A stretch of DNA of 62,402 nt from Clostridia bacterium (GTDB lineage: Bacteria > Bacillota > Clostridia > Oscillospirales > CAG-272). Numbering within the stretch: position 1 is the stretch's first letter; every line of letters begins with the position of its first letter. Below are positions 8,786 through 38,478 of this stretch, piece after piece. The DNA lies in assembly GCA_017411805.1 (NCBI GenBank), contig JAFQPI010000033.1:1-62402 (forward strand), in the 5' to 3' direction. The position numbers and the translations under genes were made by a program. The notes beneath the pieces were generated by a model that worked only from the letters and a program-made list of their open reading frames with translations, made no database searches and was not told the origin of the DNA.

Positions 8786-9243
8786 ATCAAACTCTCCAAA
8801 AGCCCCGCGCATCCCTCATAAATATCTCGATATGCGATATCAAATCTATCGGAGTACCAAGGATCGGCGACGTCACCGGGGCGTGCGGTGTAATCCATCA
8901 GTTTGCGTATTTTGCCCTCGGGATCACCGCCGAGAATGCGGTGCATATTGCGGATATTTGCCGAATCCATACCGACGAAAAGATCGTATTTGTCGTAGTC
9001 CGACTTTTGAAGCTGAACCGCGCGCTTGCCGTTGCAGGAGATGCCGTGCTTGGACAGTTCTGCTTCAGCGGGCGGATAGACGGGATTGCCGATGCCGTTC
9101 CATATCTCCTCGGTGCTCGTCGCGGACGATCTGATCTCAAATTCAGCCTCAAGTCCGCGCTCGGCAACCATTCTTTTGAATATAAATTCCGCCATCGGAC
9201 TGCGGCAGATATTGCCGTGGCACACAAACATGATTTTTCTCAT
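8782..9243 (-). CDS. low-molecular-weight protein-tyrosine phosphatase, 5' end supplied by the inserted element
   Basis: A 153-residue cytoplasmic phosphatase with the P-loop VCHGNICRS: nucleophile Cys8, then Arg14-Ser15 (CX5RS). The general-acid Asp lies in DPWYSD. Such enzymes dephosphorylate tyrosine or arginine phosphates. The ATG has AAGGAGTG in front. A second copy of its first ten codons lies at 38463-38499 directly behind mazG. I therefore infer that this gene was split by the 29-kb element and that codons 1 to about 12, the ribosome binding site and the promoter now come from the element. The stop codon overlaps the next start (ATGA). Confidence 0.9.
   Translation of the reverse strand: MRKIMFVCHGNICRSPMAEFIFKRMVAERGLEAEFEIRSSATSTEEIWNGIGNPVYPPAEAELSKHGISCNGKRAVQLQKSDYDKYDLFVGMDSANIRNMHRILGGDPEGKIRKLMDYTARPGDVADPWYSDRFDIAYRDIYEGCAGLLESLI
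9207..9222 (+). repeat. left attachment-site core of the 29-kb element
   Basis: AGATATTGCCGTGGCA recurs as AGATAGTGCCGTGGCA at 38463-38478 in the same orientation (15 of 16 identical). Similarity continues to the right in both copies because both then encode the start of the PTP gene. The core lies in the conserved P-loop codons and holds an inverted TGCC/GGCA. Confidence 0.7.
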
Positions 9244-9267
9244 CTTTTACACTCCTTATTTTGCTGA

Positions 9268-9296
9268 ATTATACTCAATTATGCCGAGTTTTGCAG
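9268..9296 (-). promoter_or_regulatory. element-borne promoter for the restored PTP operon
   Basis: On the minus strand CTGCAA (9296-9291) and TATAAT (9273-9268) are spaced 17 bp, 25 bp before the PTP start at 9243. It lies inside the element, so the six downstream enzyme genes would be driven from here. The -35 box is weak. Confidence 0.55.
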
Positions 9297-9344
9297 TGCT
9301 TTTGACACTTTTGGATAATCTTACGACTTAAAATCATATTTTTA

Positions 9345-9368
9345 ACTTGGCATAACTTGGCATAACTT
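9345..9368. repeat. tandem 10-bp repeat ACTTGGCATA near the left element end
   Basis: ACTTGGCATA occurs twice in tandem (9345-9354, 9355-9364) and begins a third time. A related inverted sequence, TTATGCCGAG, lies at 9279-9288. Such repeats between core and arm sites could be excisionase or integrase contacts, which is an inference. Confidence 0.45.
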
Positions 9369-9388
9369 TGCTTAGTTTTGCGATCGTT

Positions 9389-9409
9389 TGTCGTAAATTC
9401 TGTCGTAAA
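9389..9409 (+). repeat. left pair of putative integrase arm-type sites
   Basis: TGTCGTAAA occurs at 9389-9397 and 9401-9409. The same pair recurs at 38387-38395 and 38398-38406 just inside the other end. Paired direct repeats at both termini match arm-type sites bound by the N-terminal domain of Tn916/lambda-type integrases. Confidence 0.6.
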
Positions 9410-9419
9410 TTCGGAAGGT

Positions 9420-9713
9420 TTACGATGCTCGTTTTTCACGAGTTTTCTTTGTCGCTTCAATGCCTTCTGTTATTTTACACATATCCTCTGTTGCATTCTT
9501 GAAGCTAAAATGTGTATAGGTGTTTAGCGTGATGCTGATGTCGCTGTGACCCATAATATACTGTAGGGCTTTCGGATTCATTCCTGCCTTTGCCATATTG
9601 GAGCAAAATGTATGTCTGCAAATGTGAGGCGTAATTTTTGGCAACTTTTTCGTATGAGTTTTATCATACTTTTTACAGATGCGCTGAAAGACTTTTTCCC
9701 AATGCAGAGCTAG
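9420..9713 (-). pseudogene. int: tyrosine integrase, C-terminal remnant (Tn916 type)
   Basis: About 98 codons are open, from a stop at 9714-9716 to the stop at 9420. The frame reads WEKVFQRICKKYDKTH...PKITPHICRHTFCSNMAKAGM...LQYIMGHSDISITLNTYTH, which is the catalytic C-terminal domain of Tn916-family tyrosine recombinases: HICRHTF carries HxxR and NTYTH the nucleophile Tyr. The first roughly 290 residues (arm-binding and core-binding domains) are gone, replaced by about 50 bp of AT-rich sequence after xis. The protein should be inactive, so the element cannot excise by itself. Confidence 0.85.
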
Positions 9714-9764
9714 TTAGATTTTATCATAAGTTTGGCGTGGAATCTACATATATATTTTAAATTT

Positions 9765-9995
9765 TTAGATTGTTGTAAGTTTTTCGTCAACAAAGCGTTC
9801 GAATATTTTGCGTTTGATTTGCGGTCTGCTTCCGTTCCAGAGGATATATTCTGCTGTCGGATCTTCATCGATAAGTCTTCTGAGTTTTTTGTCTCCTATA
9901 CGGAAGTACTGAGCTGCTTCTTGTACGCTCAACGTGTATTTCCTCCAAATCGGAATATCATTTATTTCGGTAATCTGTTCACGCTCAATAACCAT
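9765..9995 (-). CDS. xis: Tn916-like excisionase
   Basis: A 76-residue winged-helix protein. IPIWRKYTLSVQEAAQYFRI, GDKKLRRLIDE, LWNGSRPQIKRK and FERFVDEKL follow the Tn916 Xis pattern (about 67 residues) very closely. Xis bends the element ends so that integrase excises rather than integrates. It sits directly upstream of the integrase remnant, the usual order in this family. A ribosome binding site GAGGAT lies before the ATG. It looks intact, but its partner integrase is broken. Confidence 0.85.
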   Translation of the reverse strand: MVIEREQITEINDIPIWRKYTLSVQEAAQYFRIGDKKLRRLIDEDPTAEYILWNGSRPQIKRKIFERFVDEKLTTI

Positions 9996-10209
9996 TTTTA
10001 TTTATCCTCCTTGACTTCATTGTTGCTGTTTGCGATTACAATTGGGGGAACAAACTTGCAATGCTTAAAATTTGTTCCCCAGGAACCCCATACGATTTTG
10101 CCGTTCACAGTATAATAGTTTCCCGATCCAACTTTTTTCGTAAGGATGAAGTGGCAAAACTAAATCAAATGTTGTTTGGGGATACTTATCCTATGTCAGA
10201 ATAATAAAG

Positions 10210-10238
10210 ACAAGGCACCCAAAATCAGGGTACCTTGT
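10210..10238 (-). terminator. hsdR terminator
   Basis: CAAGG-C-ACCC (10211-10220) pairs with GGGT-A-CCTTG (10228-10237), with one internal mismatch, 16 bp past the hsdR stop codon. On the minus strand it is followed by TCTTTATTATT. The rest of 9996-10253 shows no intact gene. Confidence 0.6.
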
Positions 10239-10253
10239 GTTCATTATTAAGCA

Positions 10254-13200
10254 TTACGCAGCCGCATTTGCATTGATCTGATCAATAATTCTTTTAATTC
10301 CAATCCACACGGAAACATCGGTGAACACTTCGACGATGCTACCCTTATCGGTAAACGGCGGTTCCTGAAGCACGGACATATCCTTCATTACGCCGTTTCG
10401 AACAATATACTCGATGATTTGGTTTACAAAATATATCTGCCTCGAATCGAGATTCACGCTGTTGAGATAATCCGCAAAAGCGGCTTTAGCCACAGACATA
10501 TCAAGTCCAACGATCTCACGAACAAACTCACCGAGAGGTTTTCCGCCGTACTCGGCTTCGTAATCCTTTTTGCTGCCCACCTCACTCCACAGAATTTGCT
10601 CCAATGCTTTCACATCGTCCGCGTTCAGCGGAACGTTTGTCTTGAGCTTGGCAATAGCCGCTTGATCCTGATGCTGACGGATATAGAATTCCGCCTTTGC
10701 CTTGTAATTTTTAAGATCGTCGCTATCAAGATCGGATTCGTTCCAATCCGTTGAAAGAATCTCGTCATCAAAATTAGTGATATACTTAATATTGACTCTC
10801 GGAATATATTTTATCAAATTACGAAGATTCTCGCGGATATGCTCGAATTCATTGATTCCCGCGCTTTCGAGATAATCGGTGTGAAGGATCTTGTTGATCA
10901 ACTCCGACTGCACCATGATTTCGGGAATATTCGCAACGCTTGCAATGCCGTTGACCTTTTTGAGCAGATCGGTACGCGCGCGTGAATACTTCTTTCCGGC
11001 GAGATACGCAAGCTCAATGCCATACATCAAAGCATCAAAACGAACTGCAGATGCCTCATCAACGTCGGGAGTGATCAGCGGGGCAAGCTCTTCAGCCATC
11101 AAAAGCGTATCCTCATAGGTGAGGGCGTTATAATTCTCCGCGTTCGCGTAAAGTTCGACGTAGCGCAAATGCTGACGAACCGCAAAATTCTCACGGTTCA
11201 GCTCTCGAACCTTACGCACCATATCATCAACAAGACTCTTACGAAATGCAATCAGATCATCCGTCTGATATTCAAGATCCTGTAGCTTAAACGCGATCTG
11301 TGCTTTGAGCTTAAAGATAGCTCCTTGCAGGGCAATTTGATTTGCCGTAGGTCTGCCGTTGTTCATACGGAAAAACTCAAAATTCCCGCAGAAATCGAAG
11401 ATGTAGAACTTGTCCTTATCCTTGCCGTCCATAAGCCCATCGCAACGACGAGTTCCACGACCGATCATCTGCCAGAACTTTGCCTTGCTCATAACTTTCT
11501 TGAAAAAGACAAGGTTTAACACCTCGGGCACGTCGATACCTGTATCAAGCATATCAACGGAGATCGCAATCTGAGGCAATTTCTTGGGATCGGAAAACTC
11601 ATCGATCGCACTCTGCGCATAGGTCATATAGTTGTCAATGACCTTGGTATATCCGGGCAGATTGGGATATTCTTTGCCAAATATCTCGTGAATTTTTTCG
11701 GCATGCTCGTGGTTCTTTGCAAAAATGATAGTTTTTCCGAGCTTCTCGCCGTAGTCGATGCGCAAACCGTCGTTCATCAAGATATGAAGCACCTGACGGA
11801 TCGTATCCTCGTTAAACACCCACTCGTTAAGCGCGGTGGATGCAATGCTCTCTGGAAGCTCGCCGTTTTCGTCCTCAAAAGTATTCTCATACGCCTCTTT
11901 ATCGGCATCGGAAAGATCATCGTAAACGATACCCTGCTCGATGAATTTCAGCTTGCTTTCGACCGATATAAAATCGACGAGGAATCCGTCGGTTACGGCT
12001 TGAGCAAGCTCATAACCGTAGGTCGGAACACCGTTTTCAAGCTCAAAGATCTCATAAGTATTCTTGTCGATCTCGTCCTTGGGCGTAGCGGTAAGACCCA
12101 CCAGCGGTGCGTCGAAATAATTGAAAATATCCTTGTATTTGTTATAGATCGAGCGGTGCGCCTCGTCAACCACAAGTAGATCAAAATGCCCGACGGTGTA
12201 GAGCTTGCGGTCGTTTTCATCCTTGACCGTGTCGATGCAGTTCATCATCGTCTGATAGGTGGAGAACACGCAGCGCGCGTCGAAATTCTCCTTGTCCTCG
12301 CAGAGATTCGCGACCGACAGATCGGGGAGCATATTCACGAAGGAACGCTTCGCCTGCGTAACGAGCGAATTACGGTCGGCGAGGAAGAGGATATTCTTCA
12401 CCCAACCGTGGTCGAGGAGCACTTTGCAGAGCGCGATGACTGTTCTCGTCTTGCCCGAGCCCGTTGCCATAACGAGCAGAGCCTTGCGGCGGTTCTTCTT
12501 ATCGAAGGACTCGCAAACCGCCTTGATCGCGCCCTCCTGATAGTAACGTCCCGCGATATTTCTGTCCACCATTACGTTCTTAAGGCTTGTGCGCATCATT
12601 TGCAGATTGAAGAGCTTTTCAAGATCGCGCTTGGAGTAGATCGACGCCACGCGGCGCTCGGGATAGAATTTGTCGTTGAGAATACGGGTGTCGAAGCCGT
12701 TCGAGAGGAAGATGATCGGACGGCGTCCGTATTTTTGCTCCAAAAGATCGGCATAGAGCTTTGCCTGCTGTCTGCCCTTGGAAACATCAACGCAGGTGCG
12801 CTTGGCTTCGATCACAGCCAAGGGTCTGCCGTCGTCGCCGTAGAGGACGTAATCGGCGAATCCGACCTCGCTCTTGTTTGGCATTCCGGGGAGCTCGACT
12901 TCATTGAGCCAATCCTTGCCCTCGGTCCAGCCCGCATCCTGGAGCATGAAATCGATATAGATCTTTCTCGTCTTGTATTCGGAGAGATCGAGCGGCTTGG
13001 GGACGTAGGTCTGCTGCTGCTCGGCGCGGCGCGCGGTGAGCTCGTCCTTGAGGGTTTTGTTCTCCTCGATCAGTTGATTGACGTCAATGTCGATATCGGG
13101 AACGAAGGAAAGTGCCTCGTCGACCGTCAGCGCGAGCAGGGAGGGATCGAATTTGTTCTCGGTATACTCGGGCGCGTAGAAATAGGCAACGCAATCGAGG

Positions 13201-13550
13201 AAGACGAAGAGATTTTCAAGACAAAGCTCTGCCTGCTCGAGCGTGACCTTCTTACCGCCGTGCGCGGCATTGTTACCGACTTTTCGGATGAGATCCATTC
13301 GTTTCCAAATATCATATCCGATGATATTTCTGAAATCGGGCGCATCGATCAGAGCCTGCAGCGTATCATTGTACGGCATTTCAAGCTCACGGTCAACCGA
13401 ATACATCCACTTGACCGCAAACTCCATCGCCCGCCGACAGTTCAGCACACAGGAGTCAATGTCAATATGTAAAATCTTCTCCGCCGACACCGCCACACTT
13501 GCAAACGACGCAAAATCGGGGGTGGAGAGTAGGAAATCAAAGTTGGTCAT
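10254..13550 (-). CDS. hsdR: type I restriction enzyme R subunit
   Basis: A 1098-residue translocase-nuclease. An N-terminal DUF4145-like region (1 to about 150) precedes the HsdR nuclease domain with Asp233 and the E248-A-K250 triad of the PD-(D/E)XK fold. The superfamily 2 motor has Walker A MATGSGKT at about 361-368, the DEAH box at 462-465, TATP at 487-490 and motif VI QMIGRGTRR. A C-terminal EcoEI-type region follows. Together with HsdM and HsdS it cuts unmodified DNA after translocation. GGAGG lies 8 nt before the ATG. It is the last gene of the restriction operon, with a terminator behind it. Confidence 0.95.
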   Translation of the reverse strand: MTNFDFLLSTPDFASFASVAVSAEKILHIDIDSCVLNCRRAMEFAVKWMYSVDRELEMPYNDTLQALIDAPDFRNIIGYDIWKRMDLIRKVGNNAAHGGKKVTLEQAELCLENLFVFLDCVAYFYAPEYTENKFDPSLLALTVDEALSFVPDIDIDVNQLIEENKTLKDELTARRAEQQQTYVPKPLDLSEYKTRKIYIDFMLQDAGWTEGKDWLNEVELPGMPNKSEVGFADYVLYGDDGRPLAVIEAKRTCVDVSKGRQQAKLYADLLEQKYGRRPIIFLSNGFDTRILNDKFYPERRVASIYSKRDLEKLFNLQMMRTSLKNVMVDRNIAGRYYQEGAIKAVCESFDKKNRRKALLVMATGSGKTRTVIALCKVLLDHGWVKNILFLADRNSLVTQAKRSFVNMLPDLSVANLCEDKENFDARCVFSTYQTMMNCIDTVKDENDRKLYTVGHFDLLVVDEAHRSIYNKYKDIFNYFDAPLVGLTATPKDEIDKNTYEIFELENGVPTYGYELAQAVTDGFLVDFISVESKLKFIEQGIVYDDLSDADKEAYENTFEDENGELPESIASTALNEWVFNEDTIRQVLHILMNDGLRIDYGEKLGKTIIFAKNHEHAEKIHEIFGKEYPNLPGYTKVIDNYMTYAQSAIDEFSDPKKLPQIAISVDMLDTGIDVPEVLNLVFFKKVMSKAKFWQMIGRGTRRCDGLMDGKDKDKFYIFDFCGNFEFFRMNNGRPTANQIALQGAIFKLKAQIAFKLQDLEYQTDDLIAFRKSLVDDMVRKVRELNRENFAVRQHLRYVELYANAENYNALTYEDTLLMAEELAPLITPDVDEASAVRFDALMYGIELAYLAGKKYSRARTDLLKKVNGIASVANIPEIMVQSELINKILHTDYLESAGINEFEHIRENLRNLIKYIPRVNIKYITNFDDEILSTDWNESDLDSDDLKNYKAKAEFYIRQHQDQAAIAKLKTNVPLNADDVKALEQILWSEVGSKKDYEAEYGGKPLGEFVREIVGLDMSVAKAAFADYLNSVNLDSRQIYFVNQIIEYIVRNGVMKDMSVLQEPPFTDKGSIVEVFTDVSVWIGIKRIIDQINANAAA

Positions 13551-13569
13551 AATTGGACCTCCGTTATTT

Positions 13570-14805
13570 TTAAATGAAATCGGAAACAGTTAACAAACCT
13601 GTTTTACTAATGAATAATTCTATAATTCTATCACGCAAAACTTTACCAGAAAGATATGCTTCGAACAAAAGCAAAAGAACATCTGTTGTAATAATCAAGC
13701 TTCCATATCGATGAGCAAGATCAATTTGCCTTTCGTGTACGTCATCTCTTTCCTCAAGTGGCTTGTTTCTTAACGGATTAACAATTAAGATGCCTTTGAT
13801 TATTTCTTTTTTTCCTTCTGTCTCTAAATAGTCTTGGTATGTTTGACAGTGGACCTCTAGTTGTGATACATTTTCGTTTTTAACATTAGAGGTAATGCCT
13901 TTAATTTCACCAATAAACGTAATTTCTGGGAGAATGATTTTAAAATCTTCTTTCTTTTCATCAACAAATTCTGTCAAATTGCACCCTATTATTTTATCCA
14001 AAATATCAAATACTGATTCGACGAGCGGGTCTCCATTTTCATATAAAATTCTCTTATAGAACATATTATTTAACAGTTTTTCATTTGCTTCTTTGATTAT
14101 GTTGCTTTGGTTCTCTATTTCTAGTTTTGCATTGACAATACGTTCATTTTGTATTTCGTCGTCATTAAATTTATAATCACTAATCCACTCTGGAATACTA
14201 CTATTATCGTTGATCATACCTATTGCAACTAAGAAATCATTGATCGGGGTATTCTTTGATGAAAGATCTAATGATGTGAGCAATAAATGAGAATCGACTA
14301 ATACTGTTGTAGTGTGCTCCCCACCATTACTTAACGTTATTGGTGTTCCTGTTAATGAAAGATGATGAAAATAAAAAGCTGCATTCATTTCTGATTTACC
14401 ACATAATGTAGTGGAATTTTCATAAACAAAATCATAGCGACATCGATTGGCTAACAGGTGATTGAGATGCCCCTTTAAAGAATAGATCATATCCTTTAGT
14501 TGTTCGGATTGCATGTATTTACCACCACTATAACAATAATGATAAGTATAGTTTTGAGGAAAACAAATAACCACTTTTGATTTCCTAGCGCTATCAATCA
14601 ATACTTTCAAGCTATCAAAATCTTTAATAGCATTAATTGAGTCTTTCGATGAGTCTTTCGAATACCATAATTCTTTTGTTTGCAAACAGATAATGTTTAA
14701 TTCAAACTCATCAAATGCACGCGGCTCACTTAGCGATGAATATGTGTAATTATGTTCGGTGCCATATTGAATTTTCTTTTCATAACTTATAACTTGTATT
14801 TTCAT
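13570..14805 (-). CDS. unrecognised protein with a putative PD-(D/E)XK nuclease domain
   Basis: A 411-residue protein that I cannot assign by name. Residues 1 to about 200 look like mixed alpha/beta, about 218-248 like a coiled coil, and the C-terminal part has Asp287, then E300-I-K302 in a strand (ITFIGEIKG), followed by a helix with Q316 and Q321. That spacing is typical of the PD-(D/E)XK nuclease fold. The ATG at 14805 has GAGGAGG in front; a longer frame starting at 14865 has no such site. The gene is clearly more AT-rich than hsdM or hsdR. It lies between the FRG gene and hsdR, so it is probably a defence effector or accessory. Confidence 0.55.
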   Translation of the reverse strand: MKIQVISYEKKIQYGTEHNYTYSSLSEPRAFDEFELNIICLQTKELWYSKDSSKDSINAIKDFDSLKVLIDSARKSKVVICFPQNYTYHYCYSGGKYMQSEQLKDMIYSLKGHLNHLLANRCRYDFVYENSTTLCGKSEMNAAFYFHHLSLTGTPITLSNGGEHTTTVLVDSHLLLTSLDLSSKNTPINDFLVAIGMINDNSSIPEWISDYKFNDDEIQNERIVNAKLEIENQSNIIKEANEKLLNNMFYKRILYENGDPLVESVFDILDKIIGCNLTEFVDEKKEDFKIILPEITFIGEIKGITSNVKNENVSQLEVHCQTYQDYLETEGKKEIIKGILIVNPLRNKPLEERDDVHERQIDLAHRYGSLIITTDVLLLLFEAYLSGKVLRDRIIELFISKTGLLTVSDFI

Positions 14806-14836
14806 ATAAACCTCCTCGGTATAATAAACCCCGTTG

Positions 14837-15697
14837 CTAATCAGTAACCACTTGAATTGAACCATACTGTCTAACAGTCCCTTGATCTTCCTCAGGAAAT
14901 CTTTTCATCAATACTTCATAGCCCGAATCGAAATACATAGCAGGGAACAAACTATTTACAGTTAAAAAGTCATTAGTCCCCAACCATTTAAATCCTAATT
15001 CAACAGGGATTCTCGCCACCCCGACTATTAAGTCACTATAATCTGCAGGATATGGTTCATTTTTCCTCAACATGAACGCGTGTTGTGCATGCGGTCTTAA
15101 AAAATATGAAGGGCTAGCATTGCGTAAATCAACCAAGCAAGTCTTATTGCCACTATATACTCCCTTGTATTCTGTCATTACCCTCGCATCACTTGCAATT
15201 AATAAAATGTACGCATATTGCTCTGTACTTTTATGGAAATAAACATATTCGTGAGAATTAACTATAACAGATTTAGCTTGATGTAAAGCAAACCAAAGTG
15301 CAACCCATACGTTATCCACCAAATCAATATACGGAGTTTTGATACCATAGTGTTGTAACAATGGCTCTAATACATTTCTCTCATACTGATAAAACGATTT
15401 AACTGTATCCTTAAAACAGTTTATCCTTTTATTGTACTTCATTGTAATACTTTCTATGTTCGTCTTTCCTCTGTATAACGAAGGAATTAACGCACCATTA
15501 TATAACGATGTCTGCCCACGCAAATATACATTATGCTCTTTACAATTCATGTACTTGCCATATCCAATAAATTGGGTTAAATCATGTATTGTTTCGATAG
15601 TATATACATTTATTATATCCCTAGACGAGAGTGTAATGGTTTCAAATAAAATATCAGACGGTGTTTTTTCTTCAAAACGACAAATCCTATTTAACAT
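14837..15697 (-). CDS. FRG-domain protein
   Basis: A 286-residue protein with the FRG signature. VYLRGQTSLY and ALIPSLYRG (residues about 58-76) carry the RGQ and PS..R motifs, and QHYGIKTPYIDLVDNVWVAL (about 115-134) matches the family's QHYGLPTRLLDWT block. FRG domains are common in phage-defence islands; their biochemical activity is not settled. I choose the ATG at 15697 because GAGGAAAG lies just upstream; the TTG at 15715 would lie on that site. Very AT-rich codon use sets it apart from the restriction genes. It is followed by the putative nuclease gene after 31 bp. Confidence 0.8.
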   Translation of the reverse strand: MLNRICRFEEKTPSDILFETITLSSRDIINVYTIETIHDLTQFIGYGKYMNCKEHNVYLRGQTSLYNGALIPSLYRGKTNIESITMKYNKRINCFKDTVKSFYQYERNVLEPLLQHYGIKTPYIDLVDNVWVALWFALHQAKSVIVNSHEYVYFHKSTEQYAYILLIASDARVMTEYKGVYSGNKTCLVDLRNASPSYFLRPHAQHAFMLRKNEPYPADYSDLIVGVARIPVELGFKWLGTNDFLTVNSLFPAMYFDSGYEVLMKRFPEEDQGTVRQYGSIQVVTD

Positions 15698-15710
15698 ATA
15701 TCTTTCCTCA

Positions 15711-15788
15711 CCCAAAATATTTTTGCATCAACGTTTTTTGAGCGTTTGAATTTTTTTGTGTCTTTGCTATATTACCGATTTTGATTTG
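15711..15788 (-). pseudogene. remnant of a second hsdS 3' end
   Basis: This stretch matches the 3' end of hsdS at 16241-16319. The first about 30 bases agree except at a few positions (CCCAAA, TATTTTTGCATCAACG, TTTTTT) and both end with GATTTTGATTTG. In the hsdS frame it would encode a damaged form of the ETLKKALMQKYFG tail. It indicates that the small membrane gene was captured between hsdS and a duplicated, now decayed, hsdS tail. Confidence 0.65.
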
Positions 15789-15792
15789 CTTT

Positions 15793-16224: not shown

Positions 16225-16237
16225 TTTTCCTTCTCCT

Positions 16238-19961: not shown

Positions 19962-19991
19962 ATAAACCTCTAAATATAATATTATATTTTT

Positions 19992-20057: not shown

Positions 20058-20060
20058 AAA

Positions 20061-21574: not shown

Positions 21575-21590
21575 CAAATACACCTCATTT

Positions 21591-22784: not shown

Positions 22785-22785
22785 C

Positions 22786-23715: not shown

Positions 23716-23718
23716 ACT

Positions 23719-26109: not shown

Positions 26110-26168
26110 ATTAGAACCCTCTTATATAATTGCAGAGCCGACGAGTTGGCTCTGCGGATAAAATACTA

Positions 26169-27503: not shown

Positions 27504-27515
27504 AATAATCTCCTC

Positions 27516-28856: not shown

Positions 28857-28935
28857 CGCTGCCTCCTTGATTCCGTGCGAATAATATTCACTTTTACACC
28901 AAAATCATACAACAAAAGCATCATCGACTTGTGTT

Positions 28936-28953
28936 CAACTTGTAATCAAGTTG
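28936..28953. repeat. inverted repeat in the gap between the two ABC modules
   Basis: CAACTTG-TAAT-CAAGTTG (28936-28953) lies in the 147-bp gap 28857-29003. It could be a weak terminator after copy B or an operator; no strong promoter boxes were found next to it. A second short stem, AGCCC/GGGCT, lies at 28980-28992. Confidence 0.4.
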
Positions 28954-29003
28954 TAAAAATACAGAAGCCAAAAACAAGGAGCCCGAGTGGGCTACATGAT
29001 CAT

Positions 29004-29933: not shown

Positions 29934-32281
29934 GTTTTCAGCCTCCTTGTTTTATGATATGTATTGCACCAAGCCGATCGCGCTGCGGTTATTATGGCGA
30001 TCATGGCAAGAGAAAGGATTATTACTGCCGATATCGGCATTGCGAAGGGGGAATCGGGAGTTGCGGCTTCCGAGAGCTTTATCAATTCCGCGCCCGCCGC
30101 GAGGGGCAGATAATCGATCTTCGAGAGCACCGTAAGTCCCGAATTGCCGGCGATAGCAGACGGCAAAAGGATCACGAGCGCGGAGATCAGCATGACCGAT
30201 ATATTTTTCTTCACCTCCGCCGATAATGCGAAAACTCCAAGCGAGAAGACGACCGTTGCAAAGAACCTCAAAAATGTTCCCGCAAGCGCGAAATCAAGCA
30301 GGTCTACACCCGAAAACCGTATTCCCGCCTCACTTTGTACCTTTGAGAAAAGTATGATCGACGCGCTTTCGGGATGCGGTAGGGTATAGTTTTTGAGTAT
30401 CAGATAAAAGTCCGCGGCTTCAAAAATCACGAAAGCAGTAAAGGCGCAGATCACGGCAAGCGAAAGCTTCGAGCTGAAGGTCTTCCCTCTGCCCAGCTTT
30501 GTCGTGCGCAGAATATCGGCAAATCTGCCCGAGGACGAGCTTTTTCCGAATTCAACGCCGAAAATATTGCAAAGCGCGATAAGTATTATAGCAAAAGCAA
30601 GCAGATCGGCATCGCGCCCGAGAAGCAGACTCCAACCGCTTTCGTACAGGAAAAGCGCATCTCTGTCGCCAAGATCGCGAAGCTCGCGCAGCCTTTGCGA
30701 ATACCCAAGCGCGCGCTCGGCGGCATTTTTATGCGAATATGCATAATTCGCCGCCTCGATGATCTCCATTCGCTCCTCGTTCGAAAGCTCGTCGCCGCTA
30801 TCCTGCATAGCCTCGTACCTTTTGATCGCGGCATTGATATACGCGATCTCGTCCGCAATATATTTGGCCTTTTCATCGGTGTACTCGCCGTCGAGACGCT
30901 CCATATATTCGCGGTAGAATATCTCGTCGGCGTCCTTCGGGCTCGAGTATGAGGTCATAGCCGAATTGAAGCGAAAGACTGCAAGCAGAATGAGGATCAG
31001 GATGATCCCGATCTTGCTGAGTATCTTTTGCGCCTCAAAAGCCGTCATAGACGAGCGGCAAACACAAAGCACGGGCATTTTCTTTTCGCGTGAGCGCGGA
31101 AGGCTCAACTTCTTTATCATTACGGACAGAATTCCGACAGACGTGAAATATCCCCGACCTTGCGCGATAGTGAGGTAAGCCGACAACGCCGATATTACGA
31201 TCAGCGGCAAGAGCAGCCACAATCCGAAATATTCAAAGCGGACGAGCGAGCCGAAAACGTCTGCGGCGTAATAGCGCGAGAATATTCCGTTGCAATCGCA
31301 GAGCGAAAAGAGATTAAAATGAGCGCAGGGGTTGTTGACGGAGGTGTATTTTGCGGTATTAAGCAGGTAATTGACAAGAATAAGCAGACCCGCGCCCGAA
31401 AACGAGATCACGTAGTCGCACTTGAGCGTCGTTACCGCCGCGCAGATCAGCGCGAAGACAAGCACCGCGGCAAGGCGCAAAAAGCTGTGGATCGCGAAAT
31501 AATCGCCGACAGTTATGATGTACGGACAATAATCGAGCCCCGAGAGGATCTGTACCGGCACTTGCGGCGACGAAAATCCGAGCTTTACCGCGATCACAAG
31601 GAATGATGCGCCCGAAAATATCACGGTAATCAAAAGCGAAAGCAGAATGACTGCGCCGAGCTTGGCTCCCGAAAGAGATTTGCATCCTCTCTTTGTACTC
31701 CGAAGAAGCGGATATATGCCGTCGGTCTTTTCGGGAATGTATACGGTACAGACGAGCAGAAAGACCGCGGCAAGGATAAAGTAAGTCGTATAAGTCTGTG
31801 AGAAATAATTGCTCCAGCCCGAGACGATCGCGACTGGGAGCGTCACCTCCTCCGAGGCGATCAGATAAAGGCTTTCGCAGTTTTTCTGATAATCATAAAT
31901 GAAATCGCCCTCTCCGTAGCCGTCTCGTTCAAGCTCAAGTGACTTTCTGCGCGCAGATTCGGAGACTTTAAGAAGTTTTTCGGGGTATTGCTCATTGCTC
32001 TCCGCCTTGCGGATGACACTGCGCAGATGGGAGTACTCTTGGGGCACTTCAATGCCTGCCTTGGAATCGGCTTCGTATTCGGCATAAAGCGCACGCGCCG
32101 CTTCGGGGTCACTGTTATAAAGCTGATAAGCTTCAACCAGTCCCTCGTTGCGAAGCTGTGAAGTACTCTTGCGCATCGAAAAAACACAGAGCGAAGTGCA
32201 TATTACGAGCAGCACGGCGGTTATAACCATGAAAAAACGCTGTCCGAATACTTTTTTTATTTCATAGTAGAGTTGTTTCAT
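29930..32281 (-). CDS. double-length ABC-2 permease (copy 2)
   Basis: A 783-residue permease with the same two-half layout as the other two in the locus. The motif appears as YPLLRSTKRGCKSLSGAK in half one and FADILRTTKLGRGKTFSSK in half two. Long extracytoplasmic helical segments follow the first helix of each half, for example DGYGEGDFIYDYQKN. It has diverged strongly from copy 3, although the linked ATPases are almost the same. It follows the lipoprotein at 32288 by 6 bp and overlaps its ATPase by 4 bp, so the three are translated together. Confidence 0.8.
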   Translation of the reverse strand: MKQLYYEIKKVFGQRFFMVITAVLLVICTSLCVFSMRKSTSQLRNEGLVEAYQLYNSDPEAARALYAEYEADSKAGIEVPQEYSHLRSVIRKAESNEQYPEKLLKVSESARRKSLELERDGYGEGDFIYDYQKNCESLYLIASEEVTLPVAIVSGWSNYFSQTYTTYFILAAVFLLVCTVYIPEKTDGIYPLLRSTKRGCKSLSGAKLGAVILLSLLITVIFSGASFLVIAVKLGFSSPQVPVQILSGLDYCPYIITVGDYFAIHSFLRLAAVLVFALICAAVTTLKCDYVISFSGAGLLILVNYLLNTAKYTSVNNPCAHFNLFSLCDCNGIFSRYYAADVFGSLVRFEYFGLWLLLPLIVISALSAYLTIAQGRGYFTSVGILSVMIKKLSLPRSREKKMPVLCVCRSSMTAFEAQKILSKIGIILILILLAVFRFNSAMTSYSSPKDADEIFYREYMERLDGEYTDEKAKYIADEIAYINAAIKRYEAMQDSGDELSNEERMEIIEAANYAYSHKNAAERALGYSQRLRELRDLGDRDALFLYESGWSLLLGRDADLLAFAIILIALCNIFGVEFGKSSSSGRFADILRTTKLGRGKTFSSKLSLAVICAFTAFVIFEAADFYLILKNYTLPHPESASIILFSKVQSEAGIRFSGVDLLDFALAGTFLRFFATVVFSLGVFALSAEVKKNISVMLISALVILLPSAIAGNSGLTVLSKIDYLPLAAGAELIKLSEAATPDSPFAMPISAVIILSLAMIAIITAARSAWCNTYHKTRRLKT

Positions 32282-32287
32282 AATAAT

Positions 32288-33658
32288 TTATGGCCTGTTT
32301 TCCCAGTTACAAGAAGTTCCTCCGCTGAGGGCATCGTCCTTCAGCGAGATTCCCCACGCGAGCGAGCCCTCCAGCTCGGTCACCTTAACGCTATCGCCGT
32401 CAAGCGTTACCAAAAGCTGAGTATGGATGTATCTTCCGTCGATCTCTTTATTGACCGAAAGCGCAACGCCGTTACCCGCCACATGACGGAAGGTGTGCTG
32501 GAAGGGTACGGTGGAACCGAGGCTGTCTTTTCTGATAGGCGAATTTTTGGAATTGAATCCGTAAAGATAATAATCATCGATGCATACGAATTCTTCTCCC
32601 GTGGAGCCCAGTATCTCGCCGCGGTATATTATTCCGCCCGTCATATCTCTGTATGTGATTTTACCTTCTGCGTGATCCTGATCGGGAAACTCGCGCGTAC
32701 GCTCGGGATCATTCAATGTATAATAGAACGCAGCTCCGCTGAATACACAGTCACAAATATTTCTCTCGAGCAAAACACGCCTTGTCATTATTCCGTTTTC
32801 CGTCTCAAGAATTACGTACTGCCAAAGAGAGAGTCCGCTCGGACTTTCGCCGTCATATTCAAGATTGAAAAAGTACAGCGATTCGCCGAGACCCGGGCAG
32901 GCATAGAACCTTCCTACAGATGATGGTATATCAACAAGCTTTGTCGGTTCTGTATCATCCGGTGATGCGGAATACAAAGCCGTATAAGCACTTTTTTGGC
33001 GCGAAACAGAATACAGAGTTCCTTCATATACTAAAAGCGGATAATATCGTCCTCCCGCATATGCGGGAAAATCAAGTCTTTCAATTTTGCCCGCCGCGGC
33101 TTCCGACATATCGAGAACGATCGAATAATCCGAGGTTTTTTTCTTGCTGAAATAGTAATAAGGACGATCGGTTTTATAGCTCAGCGAATATTCTTCAAGA
33201 TTGATTCCGTCGAAGCGAACCGTATTACGCTTAATATTCGCAACGTCCGAAAGGTCATATACGTTAAAGGTCATTCCAAGTTCATCGGAAACGACAATAG
33301 AGCAAGCAGTCGTGCCGAAAACAAGCATATGCTGATTTATGCCGCATTCGCAGGGAGTCTTTTCGCAAAAACAGAGATCGACAAAATTTCCGTCCTTGTC
33401 GACAAGCTCATTGTTGCCGGTAAAATTGTCCATATTCAGAACTGTATAATAGCTTTCCTCCGTAATGCGGGCAAAAAAGGCATCGAATCTTGTTCTGTCG
33501 TCTCCCTCGGACCATTCTTCGGTGGCTATACCCGATTCTTCCGACACATCATTTGATGAATGATCGGTATCATCCCCTTGATCCGGCTGTAACGTACAAG
33601 CCAGGATAATGATGACCAAGACAAATATTATCGGTAAAACCCAAGCTATCTTTTTCAT
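32288..33658 (-). CDS. surface lipoprotein (locus lipoprotein 2)
   Basis: A 456-residue lipoprotein with signal peptide and lipobox ILAC (about residues 19-22), then an acidic Asp/Ser/Glu-rich linker. The body has propeller-like strands such as RYYPLLVYEGTLYSVSRQ and ESLYFFNLEYDG. Its Cys cluster is a variant, LCFCEKTPCECG, in place of the CxDxxCxH motif of its neighbours. I take the ATG at 33658, with GGAGG 6 nt upstream; the start four codons earlier has no such site. Function is unrecognised; it precedes permease copy 2 and is probably its surface partner. Confidence 0.6.
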   Translation of the reverse strand: MKKIAWVLPIIFVLVIIILACTLQPDQGDDTDHSSNDVSEESGIATEEWSEGDDRTRFDAFFARITEESYYTVLNMDNFTGNNELVDKDGNFVDLCFCEKTPCECGINQHMLVFGTTACSIVVSDELGMTFNVYDLSDVANIKRNTVRFDGINLEEYSLSYKTDRPYYYFSKKKTSDYSIVLDMSEAAAGKIERLDFPAYAGGRYYPLLVYEGTLYSVSRQKSAYTALYSASPDDTEPTKLVDIPSSVGRFYACPGLGESLYFFNLEYDGESPSGLSLWQYVILETENGIMTRRVLLERNICDCVFSGAAFYYTLNDPERTREFPDQDHAEGKITYRDMTGGIIYRGEILGSTGEEFVCIDDYYLYGFNSKNSPIRKDSLGSTVPFQHTFRHVAGNGVALSVNKEIDGRYIHTQLLVTLDGDSVKVTELEGSLAWGISLKDDALSGGTSCNWENRP

Positions 33659-33695
33659 TGTTTCCTCCAAAATTTTAAGAATTGGTCCGAGGTGT

Positions 33696-35036
33696 TCAAC
33701 TTTTTTCGCTTGCCAGATCCATAGGGATAGTCTCGATATTTGTTATTGTCGAATGTTGGGGATCTGTGCGGTCTAGTTCTGCTGTAATGTAAGTTATATC
33801 ACCGTTTTCCATATCAATTATAACCAATCCGCGCTTCAGATTAAGCATATCATAGCCTTCTCCGTTATCCTTGGGAAGATATCCGCAAAGATCGTAAGTA
33901 TATATTTTGTTATCATACACCATAAGATCATTTCCGCTCTGCCCGAGATACATCAGCGAATAATCACCGCTGAATTCAAAAGCCACGGTCTGCTCGCCCG
34001 TCTCAATATCGAGCTTATACATATATCTCGGATGTGTTTCTTGTTCCGATCCATCCGGAAGTACTATGGTTATCTTTTCCTGCGGAACGTAATAAAGGTT
34101 TCTTCCATCGTGCAAGCCTCCCCAATACATACCGCCGTTCAGCTCGTGTTTGGATTTTTCGTTACCCTCAAAATCAGTTCGGTAAAAATAATAGGTATCA
34201 GAATCCATATTATTGGGATCTTTTGATTTAAAAAACAGCTCCTTGCCATCGGTAAATATAAAAGCCATTCTTCTGTCCCATATCTTTTTAAAATCCCCCG
34301 GAGCTTCCTCGTCTGAAATGTAAGTTACGGTTTCTTCGGGATCTGTAGCATACAGCTTTCCCCCATAGGCTCCGATCAGTCTGTATTGAGGACTGCTCTC
34401 TGTTGCATCGCCGAATATTTTTATTTCGCCCGTCAGCATATCGATCTGCTTGAAATTATAATAATTCTTATTTTCCTTTACTTCGATATTGTGATAATAC
34501 AAATATCTCTCGCTTATGCAGTATTGATTGTTCATAGCAGCATCTTCGTCAATCAAAGTGTGCGTCATCTTTGCGAGATCGTATACATACATAGAAGGCT
34601 TTACTTCGCTTGATTGTCCGGATAGCCTCCCGCTCTTCATTGACGAATATACGAGCATATCGGGGAACATACGGAAGAAATTTATCGGATTTGTTTTGAG
34701 CAGTCTGCAGGTGGCATCATCTCCCGAATGGCTGCAGAGCGGATCGACACAAACCGAACTGACTTCTTCGGTAAGATAATCATACTTAAAAATTCCGTTA
34801 GTTGCGCCGTGAAAATATATGTAGTCTTTGCCGAACTGTATGTGCTTGAGTGAACCGTGTATTCTGAAAATTCCGAAAGGACTTTCAAATTCTTCGGCAA
34901 CACCACCGCTCGGCACCTCGTCACCGCTGTTGCCGCTTCTTTTCAGTATCAAAGCACAGCTGACTATTGCTATTACCGGAATAAGCAAAACCAATGAAAT
35001 GATAATTAATTTTTTCTTTTGCAAAGAATTTTTCAA
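33696..35036 (-). CDS. surface lipoprotein with CxDPLCxH motif (locus lipoprotein 1), TTG start
   Basis: A 446-residue protein with a positively charged N terminus, one hydrophobic segment and a lipobox-like AIVSC at about residues 23-27, so it is either a lipoprotein or N-terminally anchored. CVDPLCSHSGDDATC lies near residue 95, and the body shows propeller-like repeats ('KHIQFGKDYIYFHGATNGIFKYD'-type strands). The only start with a ribosome binding site is the TTG at 35036 (GGAGA 7 nt upstream); no ATG fits. It follows permease copy 1. Function is unknown. Confidence 0.6.
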   Translation of the reverse strand: MKNSLQKKKLIIISLVLLIPVIAIVSCALILKRSGNSGDEVPSGGVAEEFESPFGIFRIHGSLKHIQFGKDYIYFHGATNGIFKYDYLTEEVSSVCVDPLCSHSGDDATCRLLKTNPINFFRMFPDMLVYSSMKSGRLSGQSSEVKPSMYVYDLAKMTHTLIDEDAAMNNQYCISERYLYYHNIEVKENKNYYNFKQIDMLTGEIKIFGDATESSPQYRLIGAYGGKLYATDPEETVTYISDEEAPGDFKKIWDRRMAFIFTDGKELFFKSKDPNNMDSDTYYFYRTDFEGNEKSKHELNGGMYWGGLHDGRNLYYVPQEKITIVLPDGSEQETHPRYMYKLDIETGEQTVAFEFSGDYSLMYLGQSGNDLMVYDNKIYTYDLCGYLPKDNGEGYDMLNLKRGLVIIDMENGDITYITAELDRTDPQHSTITNIETIPMDLASEKS

Positions 35037-35048
35037 GATGATCTCCTT

Positions 35049-35099
35049 TCATTCAAGCTCGAAAGTGAAATACTTTCCGCTTTCCATATTTCTTTTCAT
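35049..35099 (-). CDS. 16-codon reading frame coupled to permease copy 1
   Basis: An ATG at 35099 overlaps the permease stop codon (ATGA) and opens a 16-residue frame, MKRNMESGKYFTFELE, which ends 12 bp before the next gene. It could be a tiny peptide, or the leftover N terminus of another permease, since KYFTFEL resembles the SELKKIFG and YELRKLL starts of the permeases in this locus. I favour the remnant reading. Confidence 0.25.
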   Translation of the reverse strand: MKRNMESGKYFTFELE

Positions 35100-37612
35100 T
35101 TCACATACATCTTTCTCGCGGGCATCATAATGCCTCCGACTGCCGCGGCTGCGGCTGTTATCCAGATCGCGAGCATTCCCCAATCCGAGCCGAAAAGTGC
35201 GGTCTCGGCGGAATTGATGAGGATCGGCGTGCCGGCAAGGAGGTTGAGGAAATTGAGCGGTTCTGCCGCGCTGATGCCGAATCCAACGCAGAATGCGGGA
35301 AGAAGTGTCAGCACTATAACGGCTCCGAGCACGGGCAGATATCTGCAAAGGAGCTCGGAGAGCGCGCAGACGAGCATTGCCATCAAAAGTGCTCCCGTCG
35401 TGCGCAGGATCAGAAATACCGCAAGATAACCGCCAACGGTCAGATCGGTGGTGACCGCGGAAAATTCCCTGATCGAGACTAAAGGCGCCGCAAGTGCAGG
35501 CATCTCGAAATTCGAGAAGATCGTGATAACGTCAACCGCGCTCATAACAAGCGTCAGCGTCAGCGAGATTATTGCCGCGCTGATAAGCTTTGCCGAGAAG
35601 GTCTGCTCGCGTCCTTTTTTTGTTGAGCGGAGTATGCGTGCAAATCCGCCCTTCTCACCGCGCGAAAAGTATTCCGACGCGAATATTCCCGCAAGCACCA
35701 GAAGGATCGCGGTATAGAGGAAGAGATCGGCGTCGCCCGAGTAGAGCTTCTGCCAACCCGTGTCATAAATGAACCATCCGCCGTTCGCGTTTTCCGTCAG
35801 ATAATCGGCATGATCCTCGATAACGCGAAGCAGCTCGTCGCGCGATTCGGCGTAATTGTAGCGCGCAAGGTAATCATAATATTCCTCAAAGCCGATCTCA
35901 TTTTCGCGGTACGCCTCGTTCATCGTCTCTTTCTGAGAAATGACGCTGTTGATCTCCACGCGCTCAGCCGAGATATATTCGAGCTTTTCATCGGTCAGCG
36001 GACCCTCGAGACGTGTCATATATTCATAATATACCTCGTCGCTGTATGATCTCGGCGCGCTGTAGACCTCAGTCGAATATCCGACCTTGACGCAAAGCAG
36101 GATCACAAGCGCGATTATAAAACGCGAGGAAATGAGTGTTTTGAATATTTCCGCAGAGATCAGCGATGACGAATAGCTGCGTACACGGCGTATGCGCTTT
36201 GCACTCGATCTTGCAAGGTGCGATGAAAATTTGCGCCGTGCGATCTCAAGCTCCGCGCGGATGGTATCAATAAATCCGAATCTGATGCCGACGAAGCCGC
36301 ACGTGTGCATAATAATGCAGAAAACAATGCTCACGAGCCCCAAAACCGCAAAAACGGTAAGAACAAAGGGTAAAAATTCGCAGAGGTTGCCGAAAACATT
36401 CAGCGATCTGTAACGCTCGAAAAAGCCAGTAGCATCCATAACGCCGACGAGATTCAGCATCCTTACCGTCTCGCCCGGCAGTTTTGAGGTATATAGGAGG
36501 TAGTTAAGAATCCAAATTGCAAGTCCGCCGACAAAGATCACGGCATAATTCGAGAAGACCACCGATAATACCGCAACAAGAAGCGCGAGAAGCGCGAATG
36601 AGGAAAGCTTTATTGCAACGGTTGCGGCAAGCGTCTCGCCTATCGTCAGGCAATAGGGCGAGAGAACAAAGCTATTCAGCGACTGAATAGCATTCATTGG
36701 CGAGGAATATCCCACTCTGATGCCGAAGATCGCAAAGGTGGATGCCGTGAAGATAAGCGTTATGAGCCCCGACATAATGAGGACGGCGAGGATCTTTGCG
36801 ATCGCCGTGGTAAGCCTGCCTTCCTTTGCACTACGCAGTACGGGAAGGAATCCGTTCTGCTTTTCCTGTGCAAAGATCAGCGCGGAGATCATAATTATCA
36901 TGATCGAGATAAAGATATTTACCGCGTCGTAGGCAAAATAACTGCTCCAGCCGTAAGAATACTCGACTCCTATTCTTACGTTGTCAAGCGCAGCGGAATA
37001 CTCCTCTATGATCTTCTGCTGATAGAGGTAAACGTAATCCTCCTCGCCTGCGCCGATCCCCGGAAGCGATCCGAGATTGCGCTCGGCGCTATCTATGATG
37101 GGCTCGATCTTTCCGCGATACGTCTCGGCTTTTTCTATTGCCGAATAAAGTGCGCGGAAAAGCATCGCGTCCGAGATGTCCTCCGAGGTCGAATAGACGT
37201 CGGGGTAGCGTTGCATCTCAAAATCATCGTTACCCGCGGCGGCAGCCTCCTTCATAAGGAGATACTGTTCTTCCTCGAACACCTTCATCTTTTCGTAATG
37301 CGCATCGTATTCCTCGGGAGACTCAAAATATCCCTCGATAAACTGCGCTATCATACGGTTTTCCGCAGGATATCGGGCACCCCCGACCGAATCCCACGCG
37401 ATTGCGGAATTGATCAGCAAAAGAACGAGCAGGAATATCCAAAGATATTTGACAGCCAAAAGCTTGCGAAGCTCATATCCGACAAATCTCGTTTTTTCTC
37501 TTTTGATCTTTTTTTCGCTTGCGGCGGCAAGGAGTTCGCCTTCGTCATCCGCGCCTGTTATCCACTTGTCGGAAATATTACTTATTCCCGCGAATAAATC
37601 GTCTCTTCTCAT
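35096..37612 (-). CDS. double-length ABC-2 permease (copy 1) with extra N-terminal, possibly anti-sigma, segment
   Basis: An 838-residue permease built like copies 2 and 3, with the motifs FLPVLRSAKEGRLTTAIAK and FARILRSTKKGREQTFSAK in its halves. Unlike them it begins with about 45 cytoplasmic residues (RRDDLFAGISNISDKWITGADDEG...) before the first helix. That segment resembles the N termini of Clostridia proteins encoded next to ECF sigma factors and thought to hold the sigma factor. Its ATG overlaps the sigma stop codon by four bases. No ATPase gene follows it directly, so it would have to share copies A or B, or work as a sensor rather than a transporter. Confidence 0.75.
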   Translation of the reverse strand: MRRDDLFAGISNISDKWITGADDEGELLAAASEKKIKREKTRFVGYELRKLLAVKYLWIFLLVLLLINSAIAWDSVGGARYPAENRMIAQFIEGYFESPEEYDAHYEKMKVFEEEQYLLMKEAAAAGNDDFEMQRYPDVYSTSEDISDAMLFRALYSAIEKAETYRGKIEPIIDSAERNLGSLPGIGAGEEDYVYLYQQKIIEEYSAALDNVRIGVEYSYGWSSYFAYDAVNIFISIMIIMISALIFAQEKQNGFLPVLRSAKEGRLTTAIAKILAVLIMSGLITLIFTASTFAIFGIRVGYSSPMNAIQSLNSFVLSPYCLTIGETLAATVAIKLSSFALLALLVAVLSVVFSNYAVIFVGGLAIWILNYLLYTSKLPGETVRMLNLVGVMDATGFFERYRSLNVFGNLCEFLPFVLTVFAVLGLVSIVFCIIMHTCGFVGIRFGFIDTIRAELEIARRKFSSHLARSSAKRIRRVRSYSSSLISAEIFKTLISSRFIIALVILLCVKVGYSTEVYSAPRSYSDEVYYEYMTRLEGPLTDEKLEYISAERVEINSVISQKETMNEAYRENEIGFEEYYDYLARYNYAESRDELLRVIEDHADYLTENANGGWFIYDTGWQKLYSGDADLFLYTAILLVLAGIFASEYFSRGEKGGFARILRSTKKGREQTFSAKLISAAIISLTLTLVMSAVDVITIFSNFEMPALAAPLVSIREFSAVTTDLTVGGYLAVFLILRTTGALLMAMLVCALSELLCRYLPVLGAVIVLTLLPAFCVGFGISAAEPLNFLNLLAGTPILINSAETALFGSDWGMLAIWITAAAAAVGGIMMPARKMYVK

Positions 37613-38148
37613 AAAGATATTCCTCCCTTCAATAAAAACTCTTTCAATTCCTTCCGTGACCTTCCGAGACTCTTGCTGACCTTGTTTTCGGATAGTCCGG
37701 TTTTCTTTGCGATCCCCTTGACAGAATCTGCATAGAAATATCTGCGCACGAAAATCAGCGCGTCGAGCTTCGGCAAGGATTCAAGGAAACGGTCGATGCA
37801 TTTTCCGATCTCCGCAGATTCGTAATCGGGCATCTCGGCGGGGATACATTCGTCAAGCTCCGTTATGATCGCACTCCGCTTTTGTCTGTTTTGTGCCTTC
37901 AGGGCATTAAACGCGAGATTTCTGATTATGCGGCAGGCAAAGCTCTTGAGCGATGCGGGACGCTCGGGTGGGATCGAATTCCAAAGTCGGAGATAGAGGT
38001 CGTTCAGACATTCCTCCGCGGTCAGCTCGTCGCCCGTTATATCGAGCGCAAGCTTCAGGCACAAAGCCTTGTATTTCTTTTCAAAAAGACTAAGCCCCGC
38101 CTCATCGCGCTCAAATAACAGCTCGATGATCCTCTGCTCGTCATTCAT
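37609..38148 (-). CDS. ECF-type RNA polymerase sigma factor
   Basis: A 179-residue sigma-70 family protein. Region 2 is at about 18-85 (LTAEECLNDLYLRLWN, SFACRIIRNLAFNALKAQNR) and region 4 at about 125-175 (SLPKLDALIFVRRYFYADSVKGIAKKTGLSENKVSKSLGRSRKEL). No region 3 or 1.1 is present. I place the start at the ATG at 38148, with AAAGGAGG 8 nt upstream; a longer GTG frame lacks this. It heads the whole 18-kb lipoprotein/ABC locus on the minus strand and is coupled by ATGA to permease copy 1, its likely regulator. Confidence 0.9.
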   Translation of the reverse strand: MNDEQRIIELLFERDEAGLSLFEKKYKALCLKLALDITGDELTAEECLNDLYLRLWNSIPPERPASLKSFACRIIRNLAFNALKAQNRQKRSAIITELDECIPAEMPDYESAEIGKCIDRFLESLPKLDALIFVRRYFYADSVKGIAKKTGLSENKVSKSLGRSRKELKEFLLKGGISL

Positions 38149-38178
38149 AAGACCGCCTCCTTTCTTTAGTGCTTCATT

Positions 38179-38282
38179 ATATAAGACAACATTTTTCGGG
38201 TTTTCTGCTGCTTTTAGTAAAAACACTTAAAAAAATTCTAAATTTTTTAGATAAAAACTCTTCAGTATATAAATATAAGACA
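38179..38282 (-). promoter_or_regulatory. two copies of TGTCTTATAT upstream of the ECF gene
   Basis: On the minus strand TGTCTTATAT occurs at 38282-38273 and again at 38188-38179, where it runs into TATAAT about 30 bp before the sigma start. A repeated GTC-type box upstream of an ECF gene is what an autoregulated ECF -10 element would look like. The -35 half is not clear. Confidence 0.4.
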
Positions 38283-38320
38283 GAAAAAACAGCTCTAAGT
38301 TTCGCTATTTACAAAAAATA

Positions 38321-38352
38321 AAGCTGCCTTTGTAAATTAACACAGGCAGCTT
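38321..38352. terminator. hairpin at the right end of the element
   Basis: AAGCTGCCT (38321-38329) pairs with AGGCAGCTT (38344-38352), with an inner TGT/ACA pair. The tails are GTCACTC on the + strand and TATTTTTTGT on the minus strand, so it would work best as a minus-strand terminator that insulates the ECF locus from the host operon. The rest of 38283-38462 shows no gene. Confidence 0.5.
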
Positions 38353-38386
38353 GTCACTCTACATATTCATAGTTTGGCTCGTCAAA

Positions 38387-38406
38387 TGTCGTAAAAGTGT
38401 CGTAAA
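38387..38406 (+). repeat. right pair of putative integrase arm-type sites
   Basis: TGTCGTAAA at 38387-38395 and 38398-38406, matching the pair at 9389-9409 in sequence and orientation, 57 bp inside the right core. Confidence 0.6.
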
Positions 38407-38462
38407 TCAGAGGCTCGATGTGCGGAAATCCTTGTTTTAACAAGGATTTTGGGCATCTGTTA

Positions 38463-38478
38463 AGATAGTGCCGTGGCA
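38463..38478 (+). repeat. right attachment-site core of the 29-kb element
   Basis: AGATAGTGCCGTGGCA, 15 of 16 identical to 9207-9222 and in the same orientation. To its right lies the orphan 5' end of the original PTP gene. Confidence 0.7.

Follow-up and report, generated by a model that had tools for sequence, protein, structure and literature searches.

The window analyzed here, a stretch of 62,402 nucleotides of DNA, carries a 29-kb mobile island at positions 9207–38478, within the active-site (P-loop) codons of an LMW protein tyrosine phosphatase (LMW-PTP) gene. At the left end of the island lies an intact, rebuilt PTP gene of 153 aa (8782–9243, minus strand; PF01451, 5e-31), which begins MRKIMFVCHGNICRSPMAE. 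At the right end, an orphan PTP 5' end of 20 codons (38437–38499, minus strand), reading MVRIMFVCHGTILTDAQNPC up to its stop codon, overlaps the stop of a mazG-like gene (38493–38819), and a hairpin on the element side (38426–38449, minus strand; z −2.6 for an 86-nt stretch) marks the end of the orphan frame. The mazG-like gene and an APH-fold kinase gene (38821–39693) make up the upstream portion of a split operon, and a GNAT/Nudix gene (7580–8812) belongs to its downstream portion; all are on the minus strand. The kinase scored 21.9 bits, far below the NCBIfam resistance-enzyme cut-off of 205. A sequence-only reading of this DNA had described the flanking genes as minus-strand, packed and functionally alike, with an intact PTP gene on the left and a PTP start overlapping the mazG stop on the right, and our analysis agreed on each of these points.

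Ends and contents of the element

The element is bounded by a direct repeat, AGATATTGCCGTGGCA at 9207–9222 and AGATAGTGCCGTGGCA at 38463–38478. The sequence-only reading had found this repeat to match at 15 of 16 positions, which was confirmed. No third copy was present in the window at up to three mismatches on either strand, and the pattern AGATANTGCCGTGGCA gave two matches in the window, compared with 0 in 100 shuffles. Because the two copies carry one mismatch, the exchange could be limited to a 10-bp block, TGCCACGGCA in the minus-strand reading (9213–9222 on the left and 38469–38478 on the right), over which the junctions are identical and to either side of which they diverge. The block reads TGC CAC GGC A and thus comprises the codons for Cys, which we take to be the catalytic residue as in the LMW-PTP family, His and Gly, plus the first base of Asn. 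In the rebuilt gene, the codons from the ATG (9243) to the exchange block are element-derived, and the remainder is host sequence. In the PTP motif CxGNxCRS, the Asn is encoded by AAT in the rebuilt gene, and its place in the orphan is taken by Thr (ACT); the repeat mismatch therefore most likely arrived with the element.

The block was conserved beyond the window. Among 30 PTP loci, including those of the window and genome G103, the exact TGCCACGGCA was found in 21 and CHGN in 27. When nine junction pairs were laid out, the whole block agreed in seven (in G122 with TGCCATGGCA); the pairs of G103 and G136 showed differences within the block, for which later change or a tolerance of mismatches must be assumed.

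Just inside each end lies a paired TGTCGTAAA (9389–9409 and 38387–38406, plus strand), already noticed in the sequence-only reading, which we infer to be arm-type sites of the integrase. Occurrences begin at 9389, 9401, 38387 and 38398, and a single extra copy lies at 24390; the pair pattern matched twice, both times at the ends, versus 0 in 100 shuffles. The paired repeat TTTACGACAGAATTTAC of L218, an element of genome G233 from another family, also occurs at 9389–9409 of the window, at an equal distance after the integrase.

An excisionase and an integrase remnant had been proposed at the left end, and both are real. The Tn916-type excisionase (Xis) gene lies at 9765–9995 (minus strand; PF09035, 2.8e-22). 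The integrase is not intact, although intact ones exist in relatives: only its C-terminal part is left (9420–9713, minus strand; PF00589; listed ORF 9420–9644), with homology reaching 9713 for most queries and 9725 or 9821 for three. As the integrase is truncated, this copy is probably stranded, being unable to move alone. A tblastn search with 44 integrases revealed no second remnant in the window.

The cargo falls into two minus-strand blocks. The first, a defence block (10254–19961), encodes a type I restriction system, with HsdR (10254–13550), HsdS (16238–17404) and HsdM (17401–18897), together with an FRG-domain protein (14837–15715), a SoFic-like Fic protein (18894–19961) and two unknown ORFs (13570–14865 and 15793–16245). 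The second (20312–38226) encodes an ECF sigma factor at its end (37609–38226), three paralogous proteins of 783–838 aa, two ABC ATPases, an LRR protein and others. The paralogous proteins (23719–26109, 29930–32281 and 35096–37612) had no Pfam match; the flanking two are 29–31% identical to the middle one, and two of the three adjoin ABC ATPases. Distant homologues of these proteins are found in relatives. No Pfam match to a conjugation module (relaxase, coupling protein, type IV secretion) was obtained for 20 of the 21 main minus-strand ORFs, with ORF 27516–28856 covered by an NCBIfam scan only, and no phage replication, structural or lysis genes were detected in the element by Pfam.

An HsdR protein 97% identical to that of the window was found in genome G005, in a different context on a short contig. 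At the DNA level, window positions 10254–13554 and positions 229–3529 of the G005 stretch L258 are 92% identical, the match stopping at the gene limits, and the G005 gene adjoins, by eye, a serine-recombinase-like gene. A match confined to the gene, next to such a neighbor, suggests that HsdR cargo was probably exchanged between elements.

The two blocks differ in G+C content (0.435 and 0.474), and stacking is known at this site in other genomes, both of which would fit a 29.3-kb segment composed of at least two stacked elements, for instance a restriction island and a separate sigma/ABC segment. However, the absence of a third repeat copy means that there is no internal P-loop stub, and only a single integrase remnant was detected with the 44 integrases. 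We consider such a composite unlikely and refer to the segment as one integrated element below.

Uninterrupted operons in relatives and a second element

A search of 117 genomes matched mazG in 14 and PTP in 41, counting the window's own. In two genomes of the same genus, G005 and G010, the kinase, mazG and PTP genes are consecutive, and PTP begins on the last codons of mazG. The uninterrupted PTP of these genomes reads MVKIMFVCHGNICRS and MVRIMFVCHGNICRS, and homology to the left-flank GNAT/Nudix gene follows beyond it, so that both window flanks align around PTP. The spacing is not that of the window flanks: in G005, ~320 nt separate the kinase gene from mazG, and in G010 the GNAT/Nudix match lies ~1.2 kb from PTP. 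G005 thus keeps an uninterrupted PTP although it carries the near-identical HsdR. These findings support the proposal of the sequence-only reading that one operon was split by a site-specific element, for which an uninterrupted kinase–mazG–PTP operon in relatives had been the suggested check. Neither both PTP copies without the island nor a mazG–PTP stub without an element was seen in the genomes examined. PTP was present as one copy in 40 of the 41 matching genomes and as two copies side by side in G090, where two different PTP genes lie head to tail (L065, 8838–9809). In G001, no PTP was matched and mazG is not followed by a P-loop stub; this genome may have lost its PTP gene.

The same insertion into P-loop codons, a second check that had been suggested, does occur in other genomes. 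In G103 (matching JAGASR010000039.1), a genome of the same taxonomic order but a different family, a second element has an integrase ORF of 429 aa (65% identity to the window remnant over 55 residues), an Xis-like gene and a rebuilt PTP, which is 78% identical to that of the window. The corresponding orphan, beginning MHKIMFVCHGNIL, lies on the same contig, ~37.5 kb from the rebuilt PTP. Ten proteins of the G103 element were scanned with PHROGs; a phage-type DNA polymerase, a DnaB-like helicase, an anaerobic ribonucleotide reductase and an endolysin were identified, and no structural phage gene was found among the ten.

We also considered whether the PTP gene had been duplicated or rearranged within the operon, the intervening genes being chromosomal. 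Both PTP starts encode a nearly identical peptide, as a duplication would predict, and one cargo protein has homologues, albeit at ~24–32% identity, in a further 18 of the 117 genomes. A duplication would not explain why G005 and G010 carry a single PTP directly after mazG, why the identical junction type recurs elsewhere with other contents, or why an integrase or its remnant sits at the same end in the family-defining loci. We regard this explanation as highly improbable.

An integrase family adjoining PTP starts

A pattern-based, not exhaustive, search of 84,980 species genomes with the G103 integrase as the query yielded 30 loci. In 23 of them (including L073, from the query's own genome), the integrase is followed on its own strand by a PTP start, and 19 of these 23 starts continue into the active-site motif. 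The four without run-on are three stubs (L072, L076 and L092) and a frameshifted gene (L074). In the latter (from 7358 onwards; Flavonifractor sp. AGMB03687), the integrase-adjacent PTP is out of frame exactly at the P-loop codons, reflecting either a real frameshift or a sequencing error. For the remaining seven loci, a PTP start could not be demonstrated: L081 runs into a contig end, L098, L099 and L100 are fragments (a 23-residue match in L100), L096 is truncated, the integrase of L097 is 35% identical with no PTP start shown, and in L094, with an integrase 51% identical, PTP is absent from 1.8 kb of sequence.

A survey of 391 genomes of the class at E ≤ 1e-60 detected integrase relatives at 24 places in 22 genomes. 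Nine of the 24, all ~51–57% identical, precede a PTP start running into the motif. The 15 others comprise L225 and L227 (~52% identity) and 13 integrases at ≤45%, none of which (0/13) has a PTP within 500 nt downstream. The arm-binding domain PF02920 and the catalytic domain PF00589 were detected in all three intact PTP-adjacent integrases scanned (G103, G129 and G122) and in one integrase within a 20-kb segment of Blautia described below.

On a tree of 57 integrases, PTP use required four changes, compared with a shuffled mean of 15.6, and 0 of 500 shuffles gave a number as low. PTP use was absent from 10 rows forming an outer group, read here as Tn916-like, and from six of the seven rows of a supported subclade. 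L209 and L214, whose integrases are followed by a stub only after 938 and 2,972 nt, were labeled "no"; L081, L192 and L096 were dropped, having little or nothing readable downstream or a truncated integrase. The named records come mainly from Lachnospiraceae, plus Oscillospiraceae and Selenomonadaceae; the hosts are mostly draft genomes or MAGs, and L086, labeled Gastranaerophilales, may be a mislabeled contig. Judging by these loci, related Tn916-type integrases in Bacillota, on phage-like elements and islands, appear to share the PTP P-loop as their target in many gut bacteria.

For the far ends, a degenerate P-loop-start pattern was searched in 22 of these genomes, giving 73 places; 60 stretches covering 64 of these were read. 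By eye, the 64 places contained 22 orphan stubs, in 16 of the 22 genomes, while many others were out of frame and chance-like. Same-contig pairs enclose segments of ~18.6 kb in Schwartzia succinivorans, ~21.5 kb in a Selenomonas ruminantium MAG and ~7 kb in Flavonifractor, and segments in series were found in Blautia massiliensis GD8 (~20 and 115 kb) and G135 (~1 and 4.5 kb). Type I restriction genes are part of the Schwartzia element, as is a gene of the AbiEii family. In the 20-kb Blautia segment, the integrase lies away from the end and an IS66 transposase is present, so this segment is not a clean single element.

On viral contigs, a protein search with PTP gave no relative, and one with the integrase gave a single relative, L101, with no PTP start in the remaining 394 nt. 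Here (L101, 7180–7603), the integrase, which is 54% identical, is followed by what resembles, by eye, the beginning of a LysR-type regulator gene; a change of target is possible. The PTP-start DNA pattern retrieved 18 viral stretches with 19 matches, namely four long PTP frames (149–157 aa) and 15 stubs, and an integrase relative is present on 14 of the 18. Among seven stretches from annotated records, a PTP start follows the integrase in one (L193). The 54-kb viral contig L201 has two integrases in series (3353–12621), with a PTP start stub after each, and probably represents stacked elements.

A stub without a PTP body was found in L203, L205, L210 and L211. A stretch of 3,894 bp that runs to the P-loop codons is 99.95% identical in L211 and L212; past it, L212 enters a PTP gene, and the two look like the free and the integrated state of one element. 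L203 is identical to L211 over 4,728 bp, including the stub and the sequence that follows, and alternatively both may contain the same integrated neighbor.

In most loci, the integrase and PTP are neighbors on one strand, which could also arise from an ordinary conserved gene order, with PTP carried, for example, as a passenger gene. On that explanation, however, the orphan stubs would not be expected to stop shortly past the P-loop start and to lie at distances of as much as tens of kb, nor would the PTP body be expected to continue the host operon, as it does in G005 and G010. The free-looking elements (L203, L205, L210 and L211) have the stub alone, and the integrases at ≤45% identity lack a nearby PTP. 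We see very little room for a mere gene-order association and return to integration into the P-loop codons.

Proposed gene-restoring integration and its implications

The sequence-only reading had further proposed that the element carries a replacement 5' end for its target gene. Ahead of the element-side start, an RBS-like sequence was found in 32 of 41 cases, versus a shuffled mean of 4.6; elements thus bring the start codon and usually an RBS. A promoter was not supported as part of this package. In the window, a scan of 9180–9480 gave two sigma-70-like sites, both on the opposite strand. Between integrase and PTP, −10-like boxes were no more frequent than in shuffled sequence (8 of 41 intervals versus a mean of 11.6), and exact TATAAT occurred once (shuffled mean 1.2). 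The claim is therefore restricted to the start codon and RBS. A paired TTAC pattern, a candidate for arm sites, was present in 23 of the 41 intervals (shuffled mean 0.58, largest 3), the other 18 not fitting; by eye, L203 and L205 have a different paired repeat past the stub.

We consider it very likely that a Tn916-type integrase recombined a circular element into the PTP P-loop codons, restoring the gene. The attachment site of the circle would contain an RBS and the beginning of the coding sequence, from the ATG through TGC CAC GGC A, and the tyrosine integrase would recombine it with the P-loop codons of the host PTP. The crossover would join the element codons to the host AATATCTGCCGC and make the phosphatase frame whole again, with the initial codons of the host gene left behind at the opposite end, where they form the 20-codon orphan. 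Since the element supplies its own copy of the PTP start, the gene would be simultaneously cut and restored. The rebuilt gene retains the target sequence, so that further elements may insert and stack. The window copy, with most of its integrase lost, is probably fixed. Junctions, empty sites, recurrence, tandem stacks and one element in two states are all read directly from the DNA. As the window integrase is only a remnant, the enzyme that would have carried out the reaction is deduced from its relatives. Because the host PTP start overlaps mazG, its translation is probably coupled to mazG, and would be uncoupled after insertion.

Both gene-restoring integration and insertion into the 5' end of a gene are already known. 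SCCmec and related cassettes are inserted in rlmH, which stays functional, and can stack; they rely on serine recombinases and occupy the gene's 3' end, whereas the PTP case involves tyrosine integrases and the 5' end. General features of the Tn916 family are shared with the present elements, namely a PF02920 plus PF00589 integrase, a PF09035 excisionase and paired short repeats inside the ends. Unlike these elements, Tn916 is described, in the available text of one source, as having low specificity and no flanking direct repeats (PMC4701971); the PTP-targeting family has one target gene (23 of 30 loci) and matching ends in the pairs shown. According to the same text, streptococcal ICEs insert site-specifically in the 5' end of ftsK, rbgA or ebfC, and resemble the present elements in having a tyrosine integrase that adjoins the target, direct repeats of 12–54 bp and the 5' end of a conserved gene as their site (PMC4701971). 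The present elements instead target a phosphatase at its catalytic P-loop, the word "phosphatase" being absent from the main text of that source (PMC4701971), and the window element has no recognized conjugation gene among the ORFs tested. The Lactobacillus crispatus prophage PhiM247 uses the 5' end of msrA, with an attachment site spanning 96 nt of the gene (PMC10763512). It is alike in that the site includes the 5' end of a protein gene and unlike in the gene used, and the available part of that source describes no integrase family sharing an enzyme active-site target (PMC10763512). The active-site codons of LMW-PTP as an insertion target were not found in the open-licence literature among the matches listed.

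An enzyme active site is highly conserved, which would make it an insertion target common to many species; to exploit PTP, elements must encode the matching piece of the enzyme. If true, this would account for a hotspot of insertions in Clostridia and Selenomonadaceae of the gut. The MxKILFVCHG stubs would serve as precise element-end markers for annotation, and integrases with a common natural target may aid gene placement in gut bacteria that are difficult to handle. More speculatively, and at a strength that we would call doubtful though worth entertaining, the P-loop may be a Bacillota-wide docking site for phages, islands and stacks that substitute their own version for the first part of a signalling enzyme, including the catalytic Cys codon. 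PTP would then shift from a mazG-coupled start to an element-controlled one, perhaps via integrase transcripts, and insertion and loss would act as a switch of phosphatase level. This raises the question of whether a host phosphatase is under the control of mobile elements.
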